This document shows positions 36,586 through 40,054 of a stretch of DNA of 64,000 nt, one piece after another. Where the stretch lies: positions 682,001 to 746,000 of the forward strand of contig JABUFD010000001.1 in the NCBI GenBank assembly GCA_013314735.1, written 5' to 3'. Numbering within the stretch: position 1 is the first letter of the stretch; every line of letters starts with the position of its first letter. The position numbers and the translations under genes are program-made. Source of the stretch: Anaerolineae bacterium (GTDB lineage Bacteria; Chloroflexota; Anaerolineae; Anaerolineales; Anaerolineaceae). The notes under the pieces are model-generated. The model was not told the origin of the DNA, did not search any database, and was given only the letters and a program-made list of their open reading frames with translations.

Positions 36586-36987
36586 ATGAAGAGTTTTTTG
36601 ATTCGATTAATCATCAATTCGGTGGCAGTGTACGCAGCTATTGCCATCATGGACGGTCAGGGCCTGACAGCCACGACGGGTGTATGGTATTCGTATGTGG
36701 TTGTGGGCTTTATATTTGGCGTGGTGAACGCGCTGCTCCGCCCACTGATCAAATTGTTGACCTGCCCCTTGATTGTGTTGACCCTGGGTTTGTTTACCTT
36801 GTTGATCAATACAGGGATGTTCTACCTGACGGGCTGGCTGGGAACAGTCATCACGGGTTTCGGCTTCACCGTTGACACTTTTTGGGGAGCGTTCTTCGGC
36901 GCTTTAATCACCTCGATCGTCAGCGTGGTTCTTAGCATTTTTCTTGATGACGATAAAAAGAAGAAGAAACATCGGAAAACCGAATAA
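36586..36987 (+). CDS. Phage holin family IV-like four-helix membrane protein
   Basis: A 133-residue membrane protein with four hydrophobic segments and a lysine-rich tail (DDDKKKKKHRK). The segment NALLRPLIKLLTCPLIVLTLG (partly) is diagnostic of the 'mycobacterial 4 TMS phage holin' family (PF04020), which despite the name is a common chromosomal protein. No phage genes are near. ATG 36586 has AAAGGAAG upstream. The function is unknown. Confidence 0.88.
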   Translation: MKSFLIRLIINSVAVYAAIAIMDGQGLTATTGVWYSYVVVGFIFGVVNALLRPLIKLLTCPLIVLTLGLFTLLINTGMFYLTGWLGTVITGFGFTVDTFWGAFFGALITSIVSVVLSIFLDDDKKKKKHRKTE

Positions 36988-37985: not shown

Positions 37986-38014
37986 TTGACAAAATGTATA
38001 CCGATCGGTATAAT
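37986..38014 (+). promoter_or_regulatory. Consensus tetR promoter with embedded operator
   Basis: TTGACA (37986-37991) and TATAAT (38009-38014) with 17-bp spacing form a perfect sigma-70 consensus. The perfect 16-bp palindrome TATACCGATCGGTATA (37997-38012) fills the spacer and overlaps the -10 box, so bound repressor would block RNA polymerase. The expected transcription start coincides with the tetR ATG. Confidence 0.88.
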
Positions 38015-38021
38015 GACGGGT

Positions 38022-38588
38022 ATGGATGCAAAGCAATTACTTGAACAAGCTGCTTTAACTCTCTTTTCGGCGAAGGGCTACGAAGGTGTGGGCGTTCAGG
38101 AAATTGTCGATCATGTTTCCCTCACCAAACCCACGCTCTACCATTACTTTGGTTCCAAGGATGGCCTTTTCCGCACCATCATCGCACGGGGAGTTTTACC
38201 ATTGGAACAGGAGCTGATACTGGCAGCCAGATATGCGGGTGACCTGACAGGGACCTTGTCAACCATCGCAAGGTGCTACTTCACTTTTCTGGATCGCCAT
38301 CCGGTGTTCTATCGGTTATGGCTGGCGATACAGACTGCACCAACAGACTCGATCATGAAGCAATTGGCGGCTCCGTATTTAGAACATCAAATCGAGGTAA
38401 TTGAAACAGTATTCCAGCAGGCAGTTCGCGATCATGGCAATATGGATGGCAGAAGTACAATCTATACGATGACGTTCATCGGAATGATTAACAGTATAGC
38501 CAATCTGGTTCTGGACGGTACGTTGGAAATCGATGAGGGCATGCTCTACCGTGTGTTGCACCAGTTTGAACACGGCATTTACTCGTAA
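38022..38588 (+). CDS. TetR/AcrR family transcriptional regulator
   Basis: A 188-residue repressor with an N-terminal helix-turn-helix (FSAKGYEGVGVQEIVDHVSLTKPTLYHYFGSKDGLF, partly) and an all-helical ligand-binding C-terminus. I set the start at ATG 38022 (MDAKQLLEQ): an open frame reaches back to 37986, but that TTG is the promoter -35 box and the intervening bases are operator and -10. The predicted mRNA is leaderless. It should repress itself and, through a second copy of the operator at 38610-38625, the downstream GH13 gene. The ligand is unknown; a glucan-derived sugar is a reasonable guess. Confidence 0.93.
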   Translation: MDAKQLLEQAALTLFSAKGYEGVGVQEIVDHVSLTKPTLYHYFGSKDGLFRTIIARGVLPLEQELILAARYAGDLTGTLSTIARCYFTFLDRHPVFYRLWLAIQTAPTDSIMKQLAAPYLEHQIEVIETVFQQAVRDHGNMDGRSTIYTMTFIGMINSIANLVLDGTLEIDEGMLYRVLHQFEHGIYS

Positions 38589-38609
38589 AAATTTTTTTAT
38601 CGAAAGGAA

Positions 38610-38625
38610 TATACCGAACGGTATA
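38610..38625 (+). promoter_or_regulatory. Second TetR operator, upstream of the GH13 gene
   Basis: TATACCGAACGGTATA has the same 7-bp arms as the tetR operator (TATACCG/CGGTATA), differing only at the two central bases. It lies between the tetR stop and the GH13 ribosome binding site. Confidence 0.82.
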
Positions 38626-38635
38626 GAGGTGAATG

Positions 38636-39997
38636 ATGAACCATCATTGGAGTTCAGAAAGTGTTTTTTATCACATCTACCCGCTTGGATACTGCGGGGC
38701 AGAGCATGAGAACGATGGCAGCCTGGCTGTGACCAATCGGCTTCATGCCATCATCGATGTATTGGATGACCTGGTCGAGCTGGGGATTACTGCAATCTAC
38801 CTGGGGCCGGTTTTTGAATCTTCTTCTCATGGTTACGATACCACCAATTACTTTCAGGTTGACCGGCGGTTGGGGCAGAATCATGATCTGAAAAGATTAT
38901 CTGAGGAAATTCATCTGCGGGGGATGCGATTGGTGTTGGATGGTGTTTTTAACCACGTGGGGCGCCGGTTCTGGGCATTCGAGGATGTTAATCAAAACAG
39001 GGAGCTTTCGGCATATACCGGATGGTTTGTCGACCTAAATTTTCATGCGTCCAACAGGTATAATGACAATTTTTCATATGCCTGTTGGGAAGGACATGCC
39101 AGTCTCCCCCGGTTGAACCTGCATAACGATTCGGTAACAAAACATTTGCTCGATGCTGTGGGCTATTGGATCGATGAATTTGACATTGATGGCTTGCGTT
39201 TGGATGCGGCAGACTGTGTTCTGCCGTCCTTCTGGCAGCAATTGCGTCAGTTCACACGTCAGCGCAAGCCAGAGTTCTGGTTGATGGGTGAAATCATCCA
39301 CGGCGATTACCGAAAATGGGCAAATCATGAACAATTTGATTCTGTCACGAATTACGAAGCGTATAAGGGGATATGGTCGAGTCTGAATGATCGCAATTTC
39401 TGGGAAATTGCCTATACCTTCAACCGGCAATCGGGACCGGAAGGAATTTACACTGACCTGCCGCTGTATAACTTTGTTGATAACCACGATGTGGAACGCA
39501 TTGCATCCATTCTCATCCATCCGGCTCATCTGTCACTGGCTTATGTGTTGATGTTTACCATGCCAGGTATTCCATCCATTTATTATGGCAGTGAATTGGG
39601 TTGGGCAGGGAAGAAAGCCGCCGGTGATTGGGGGCTTCGCCTCCCGATGCCGGCAGTCGCGGAATACCGGCATCAGCGGGAGCAATCATCAGTGTCTCAG
39701 TTGATCCGACATCTGGCCCTCACGTGCCGAAACATCCCGGCGTTGCGGCATGGAACCTACCACCAGGTTCATGTCAGTTCAGAGCAGCTGGCATTTGCCC
39801 GCATGGATGGTGACCAATGGGTACTCGTTGTGTTGAATATGAACAGCGATCCGGTTGAGATCAACATCCAACTGCCAACAGGAACGAATGGTACCTGGTT
39901 TGATCAACTGAACGGCGAAGATTTGGGAATCCGGTCGGAGAATTCAGTCGTCCAAATTCCTGGAAATTGGGCAAGAATCATTACCATCAAAAGGTAA
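38636..39997 (+). CDS. Alpha-amylase family (GH13) glycoside hydrolase
   Basis: A 453-residue cytoplasmic GH13 enzyme without signal peptide. The (beta/alpha)8 barrel begins at VFYHIYPLGYCG. The catalytic residues are Asp190 (LRLDAADC, nucleophile), Glu219 (LMGEII, acid/base) and Asp285 (FVDNHDVERI, transition-state stabiliser). DGVFNHVG is conserved region I. A short beta-sandwich C-domain ends the protein. It lacks the N-terminal domain of cyclomaltodextrinases, so maltooligosaccharide hydrolysis or transglycosylation is likely but not certain. GAGGTGA favours ATG 38636 over the ATG at 38633. Expression is probably controlled by the upstream TetR protein. A terminator follows. Confidence 0.93.
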   Translation: MNHHWSSESVFYHIYPLGYCGAEHENDGSLAVTNRLHAIIDVLDDLVELGITAIYLGPVFESSSHGYDTTNYFQVDRRLGQNHDLKRLSEEIHLRGMRLVLDGVFNHVGRRFWAFEDVNQNRELSAYTGWFVDLNFHASNRYNDNFSYACWEGHASLPRLNLHNDSVTKHLLDAVGYWIDEFDIDGLRLDAADCVLPSFWQQLRQFTRQRKPEFWLMGEIIHGDYRKWANHEQFDSVTNYEAYKGIWSSLNDRNFWEIAYTFNRQSGPEGIYTDLPLYNFVDNHDVERIASILIHPAHLSLAYVLMFTMPGIPSIYYGSELGWAGKKAAGDWGLRLPMPAVAEYRHQREQSSVSQLIRHLALTCRNIPALRHGTYHQVHVSSEQLAFARMDGDQWVLVVLNMNSDPVEINIQLPTGTNGTWFDQLNGEDLGIRSENSVVQIPGNWARIITIKR

Positions 39998-40000
39998 CAG

Positions 40001-40033
40001 AAACTGCCAGGGAAAAAATTACCCTGGCAGTTT
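40001..40033. terminator. Bidirectional terminator between GH13 and Agl23 genes
   Basis: AAACTGCCAGGG / CCCTGGCAGTTT (12 bp, 9-nt loop), followed by TTTT, between convergent genes. Confidence 0.88.
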
Positions 40034-40054
40034 TATGATTGATTGTTTCAAGGA

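Follow-up and report, generated by a model that had tools for sequence, protein, structure and literature searches.

How does a TetR-type repressor control the enzyme gene behind its own when one of its two putative operators lies in a canonical promoter and the other, between the two genes, lies in none that can be recognised? The question is raised by a tetR-GH13 gene pair from an Anaerolineae bacterium, located in a 64,000-nucleotide stretch of contig JABUFD010000001.1 that is called the window below. The elements on which the argument turns are the following.

37986 to 37991, forward strand: -35 box TTGACA of the tetR promoter (read from the sequence).
37997 to 38012, forward strand: O1, putative 16-bp palindromic operator TATACCGATCGGTATA, overlapping the spacer and the -10 box (sequence, conservation).
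38009 to 38014, forward strand: -10 box TATAAT of the tetR promoter (sequence).
38022 to 38588, forward strand: tetR, 188 aa (Pfam TetR_N, 1.5e-15; AlphaFold2 model).
38592 to 38598, forward strand: coding-strand T7 tract, separated from O2 by 11 bp, the proposed U-tract or release element (sequence).
38610 to 38625, forward strand: O2, putative second operator TATACCGAACGGTATA in the tetR-GH13 intergenic region, the proposed roadblock site (sequence, conservation).
38633 to 39997, forward strand: GH13 gene, 454 aa from ATG 38633 (PF00128, 3.4e-55).
40004 to 40034, forward strand: intrinsic terminator after GH13, with a perfect 9-bp stem, a 9-nt loop and TTTT (read directly).

The tetR promoter is an exact TTGACA-N17-TATAAT (37986-38014, with the 17-bp spacer at 37992-38008), and O1 takes in the final 12 bp of that spacer and reaches 4 bp into the -10 box. 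The first-pass annotation had described a perfect palindrome filling the spacer of a perfect promoter; palindrome and promoter are indeed exact, but O1 does not simply fill the spacer, as it also enters the -10 box. Of 70 related loci, 65 have TTGAC at most 25 bp upstream of O1, and the hexamer at +12 from the operator ends in T in 66 of the 71 O1 rows (one other row being the false match L133). Seven nucleotides separate the -10 box from ATG 38022, the most likely start of tetR; TTG 37986 was rejected as a start codon because it is part of the -35 box. Transcription would presumably begin near 38021, and since this falls next to the ATG at 38022, the tetR mRNA is probably leaderless in the window and in the scored loci of the family. 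The distance from the -10 box to the tetR start, with start codons placed by script, is 6-10 nt in 61/61 scored family loci, while among the 11 scored loci outside the family it is 16-34 nt in nine and 7 nt in two.

The protein itself matches the TetR_N helix-turn-helix domain (PF00440) with 57.1 bits against a cut-off of 24. Its AlphaFold2 model is all-helical, with nine helices and a pLDDT of 90.5, and aligns with the solved folds 6azh and FasR (6o6p) at a TMq of 0.78. The domain, the modelled fold and the conserved palindrome before its own gene, which ends with the stop codon at 38586-38588, together assign it to the TetR/AcrR family of regulators. A ligand could not be taken from the fold, since the nearest ones, which include FasR and a putative fatty-acid regulator besides further TetR proteins, are about 12-23% identical and name none. 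A small membrane protein is encoded upstream at 36586-36987 (PF04020, four-TMS phage holin superfamily IV), with no evident link to the regulon.

The second gene encodes a protein with neopullulanase/cyclomaltodextrinase-like catalytic and C-terminal domains and no N-terminal domain. ATG 38636 is also possible as its start, and the AGAGG ahead of the start (38625-38629) abuts the end of O2. The PF00128 match reaches 188.5 bits (cut-off 22), the closest solved structure is 1j0h (1.3e-64), and Foldseek aligns 1vfm at a TMq of 0.86. D191, E220 and D286, which we take to be the catalytic carboxylates, are invariant among 21 sequences, and DGVFNH, GLRLDAAD, GEI and VDNHD are presumably the motifs of the GH13 catalytic domain. 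The catalytic domain and these motifs are shared with the neopullulanase, cyclomaltodextrinase and maltogenic amylase enzymes 1j0h, 1vfm and 1gvi, from which the protein differs in its missing N-terminal domain and an identity of about 30%. It stays under the curated cut-off in all 25 NCBIfam models listed of the 41 matched, including the cyclomaltodextrinase AglB and maltodextrin glucosidase equivalogs (NF041090, 197.2 vs 540 bits; NF008051, 202.2 vs 568 bits). No signal peptide is evident by eye. The terminator behind the gene was not listed by the scan, which admitted loops of at most 8 nt.

We scored 74 distinct tetR loci, including the window's own and one from Spirochaetaceae; rows L091-L093 (duplicates, with L032, L030 and L031) were excluded, L129-L132, which have no tetR match, were kept out of the operator counts, and weaker TetR matches were left out as fragments or other TetR proteins. 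GH13 directly follows tetR in 72 of the 74 loci and the remaining two are cut by contig ends. The relatives' TetR proteins are 34-48% identical to that of the window. All of the best 30 tetR matches, the window's own included, have GH13 directly downstream. A class-wide draw of 396 genomes gave a tetR match (E at most 1e-20) in 16, six of them family genomes with the window's own among these, and GH13 adjoins in 16/16. A GH13 relative (E at most 1e-80) is present in 67 of the 147 family genomes. Most other GH13 relatives have no close tetR relative within the stretch examined; in a Clostridia locus (L055) a tetR relative lies downstream of GH13.

The search for the palindrome in front of orthologous tetR and GH13 genes, on whose outcome the first-pass annotation had let its proposal depend, found O1 with at most three mismatches in 72 of the 72 tetR loci that have upstream DNA, and O2 in 54 of 72. 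The O1 count omits L038 (6 mismatches) and the false match L133, where the contig begins; O2 was scored as canonical (at most two mismatches) or as the variant TATACCTACCGGTATGTA (at most three). A reversed-pattern control found at least four mismatches at O1 in 73 of 74 loci and two mismatches in one, and no O2 in 72. A clear O2 is absent from 18 of the 72 loci, 15 being without O2 and three having a degenerate one; the Spirochaetaceae locus (L060) has tetR, O1 and GH13 without O2. No operator was found in the 300 bp upstream of the family's tetR-less GH13 orthologues L129 (G094) and L130 (G122), the best candidates having five mismatches, while L131, at a contig edge, keeps an O2-like site alongside the tail of tetR. 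Under a rule fixed before four other families (98, 24, 5 and 150 genomes) were searched, ten new loci were obtained from three of the four; GH13 is adjacent in 10/10, O1 present in 10/10 and O2 in 9/10, with the O2 of L163 beyond the mismatch limit. Because the tetR loci are related, these counts are not independent. The outcome does not refute the first-pass proposal, and phylogenetic footprinting across many species lends support to the idea that a single local repressor would serve both tetR and GH13.

The palindrome pair is real and beyond chance. As exact copies of the motif, O1 and O2 are alone in the 4.09-Mb genome, where the reversed pattern has none. At up to two mismatches, the genome holds 12 places for the operator against 13 for the control, and it is the exact sites alone that rise above the background; within the window, seven sites with at most three mismatches compare with a mean of 0.81 and a largest value of 4 in 100 shuffles. 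Across the family (Anaerolineaceae) the exact motif occurs in 51 of 147 genomes and the reversed control in 2 of 147. A wider regulon was considered and set aside, as a third exact site is absent from the genome, and the single one-mismatch site (L087) was rejected as a target since it sits in an ORF that by eye is sulfatase-like. Five off-locus exact sites of relatives were read and dismissed as targets, one of them without certainty: three lie within ORFs (G027, G042, G079:C9), one is near a contig end (G145:C204), and the fifth (L081, G079:C11:45142) lies 91 bp ahead of an ABC-transporter-like ORF and would be the likeliest further target.

O2 lies 613 bp beyond O1, and the earlier statement that a copy with identical 7-bp arms precedes GH13 holds at 38610-38625. 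In many loci the centre and the right arm of O2 are altered, and binding of the same protein there is our assumption. The variant sites (L014, L021, L022, L025, L026, L029, L035, L036, L040, L041, L107, L111, L159-L161) lie near TATACCTACCGGTATGTA(TA), a form that is itself conserved and keeps an invariant left arm TATACC, and O1 stays canonical in these loci. In L023, L028 and L039 (genus g39), where O2 and the T-run are lost, perfect palindromes that are potential hairpins lie between tetR and GH13 and may perhaps serve another kind of control.

When the loci are aligned on O2, nothing outside the operator stands out as strongly as a run of T at -17 to -11. In 43 of 54 loci a T-run of at least six stops 8-12 bp short of O2 (10 bp in 25, 11 bp in eight, 8 bp in seven, 9 bp in two and 12 bp in one); against the background, a T6 would end in a window of 5 bp with a probability of 0.0039. 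The T-run is missing from the other 11. Among the held-out loci, eight of nine have it, all at exactly 10 bp; in L161, the exception, a T4 lies 10 bp and a T6 1 bp from O2. Runs of at least six T were counted in 44 of 54 O2 loci vs 5 of 18 others (three of the 15 without O2 and two of the three with a degenerate one), with a Fisher p of 5.7e-5 that ignores kinship; shuffled stretches gave a T-run anywhere in a mean of 3.9 loci and at most 13 (1000 shuffles), against the 44 observed. The distance from the tetR stop codon to the T-run varies from 0 to 192, yet where this stretch is longer (L086, L100) the T-run remains at O2, and in held-out L158, with a tetR-GH13 gap of about 300 bp, T8 still stands 10 bp before O2. 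The position of the T-run tracks O2 and not the stop codon.

Evolutionary losses of the two elements coincide in part. On a FastTree tree read by Fitch parsimony, O2 was lost on nine branches and the T-run 15 times in total; five of the nine O2-loss branches are also T-run losses (L042; L034; L101; L028, L023, L105, L039 and L112; L030 and L120), the other four show no such coincidence, and most of the T-run losses lie on branches without an O2 loss. The tetR-less L130 has a T7 run near the GH13 start without an operator. A general use of the T-tract device in this genome found no support: a T-run 7-13 bp before a palindrome was found in 464 kb with five entries (four distinct sites, O2 included), against 0-5 per equal interval elsewhere, a comparison of low power.

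It is conceivable that GH13 has a weak promoter of its own, at O2 or inside tetR, that TetR at O2 blocks it in the ordinary way, and that the T-tract is an AT-rich promoter element. The right end of O2 reads TATAAT, TATATT or TATAGT in 6 of 37 sites, and the tetR-less L129 has GH13 behind its own TTGACG-N17-TATAGT. A promoter-like site inside tetR (38434-38461, 9/12 match) is weak and no better than those of shuffles (two sites found, mean 1.5), and it leaves room for a separate GH13 start. The aligned loci, however, have no TTGACA at O2; the T-tract, the sole -35 candidate, would in that role be separated from the hexamer at +12 by a spacer of about 22 bp, and the window scan listed no promoter-like site in the tetR-GH13 intergenic region. 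That hexamer ends in T in only 7 of 37 O2 sites. Because its last T is kept at O1 and mostly lost at O2, O1 is by its anatomy a promoter operator, and O2, which resembles none, has the features expected of an operator placed downstream of a promoter without one of its own. We therefore regard a private GH13 promoter as unlikely, if worth keeping in mind.

Less plausible again, the T-tract could be a bent A-tract or another DNA-shape aid to TetR binding, with O2 a plain roadblock or an auxiliary operator. The T-tract does lie about one helical turn from O2, but it is rare at O1, where T6 occurs within 24 bp upstream in 3 of 70 loci (within 60 bp in 6 of 70), and it is one-sided at a nearly symmetric operator: the mirror A6 is found within 24 bp downstream of O2 in 1 of 54 loci and in 0 of 10 held-out ones, and A-runs within 24 bp upstream in 2 of 54. 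As the ribosome site constrains the downstream side of O2, the one-sidedness is not decisive.

An intrinsic terminator of tetR that has the T-tract as its U-tail, close to O2 merely through short spacing, is highly improbable, for although in 12 of 44 loci the tract comes immediately after the tetR stop and a stem of -4 kcal/mol or better precedes it in 7 of 43 (one of them -8.3), the stem median is 0 kcal/mol (43 loci; 0 in the window as well) vs a shuffled mean of -1.3, and the run shifts with O2. The stem test covered stems ending at most 3 nt from the T-run in the 30 nt ahead of it, and a stable hairpin directly before the U-tract, at -8 kcal/mol or better, was found in 1 of 43 loci.

The reading that we prefer, with a probability of roughly 0.6, is a two-gene, self-contained regulon in which TetR would block initiation at O1 and act as a roadblock to polymerase at O2, with the RNA end in the U-tract. 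A TetR dimer bound to O1, inside its own promoter, would prevent initiation, and a dimer would also bind O2 between the genes; for both sites the argument comes from conservation. Since no promoter is seen at O2, GH13 would probably share an mRNA with tetR and be transcribed from the promoter of the latter, as the anatomy of the locus suggests. The front edge of a bacterial elongation complex is about 14-18 bp ahead of the 3' end of the RNA, and a polymerase stopped by TetR at O2 would therefore have that end within the U7-U8 tract, about 10 bp upstream of the operator. There the weak rU:dA hybrid may favour backtracking or release, perhaps with the help of Mfd, which is encoded in the genome; Rho may act as well. 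An inducer, presumably a sugar derived from alpha-glucan, would free O1 and O2 together, so that repressor could be made in small amounts and the enzyme kept under tight repression.

Parts of this scheme have precedents. The first-pass annotation called a TetR protein uncommon as a regulator of a sugar enzyme, and uncommon it is, but not without example: according to the available part of the source, the BgrT group of bifidobacteria comprises TetR-family proteins predicted to regulate the use of beta-glucosides and beta-galactosides (PMC4746261). As described there, these too are local regulators beside glycosidase genes, predicted with their palindromic sites by comparative genomics; their palindromes are of 18-22 nt and their targets include transporters (PMC4746261). 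The present locus has a 16-bp operator, no transporter and a single GH13 enzyme of alpha-glucan type. Repression by roadblock is known for LacI, CcpA and CodY, which stop elongating polymerase downstream of the promoter as we propose for TetR at O2; the accessible portions of these reports do not mention the feature seen here, a T-run that is conserved and keeps its distance ahead of the operator (PMC10310618, PMC4132739). About 90% of termination at the E. coli LacI roadblock is ascribed to Mfd, in the part of that account available (PMC4132739).

A parallel in layout is eukaryotic. As excerpts of one study report, the stop of Pol I falls 15 bp ahead of a Reb1/Nsi1 site, where the non-template strand is T-rich (PMC12366685). 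The T-run before O2 resembles in its placement that T-rich stretch of the Pol I terminator (Reb1/Nsi1/TTF1). The Pol I terminator is not inducer-controlled and needs a hairpin for release, since in the same excerpts a roadblock and T-rich sequence without an upstream RNA hairpin gave no RNA release, which tells against simple release at O2 (PMC12366685). The O2 system, unlike the Pol I terminator, is bacterial, is presumably inducer-controlled and has no visible hairpin in most loci. That it is a repressor-gated, hairpin-less bacterial terminator, with T7-8 about 10 bp before an operator, inducer-controlled stop and release and an origin independent of Pol I, is a tentative suggestion, to which we give somewhat short of even odds.

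A literature search, mostly without subscription journals, found no bacterial element of fixed T-tract and operator and no paper title on a TetR regulator of a GH13 enzyme. Autoregulated local TetR repressors and roadblock repression are known; the phased T-tract at the second operator is, as far as that search goes, the new part. It is this promoterless-looking O2 with its phased T-tract, together with the probably leaderless tetR, that goes beyond the first-pass annotation. If the reading is right, one repressor and two short DNA elements would switch elongation as well as initiation, and the point at which polymerase stalls would have been selected to fall in a U-tract. A small system conserved in nature would then allow tests of how roadblocked polymerase is released, and T7-N10-operator would be a compact part for synthetic control. 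The locus would also be one more conserved case beside the small number of TetR-family regulators that are linked with sugar enzymes.
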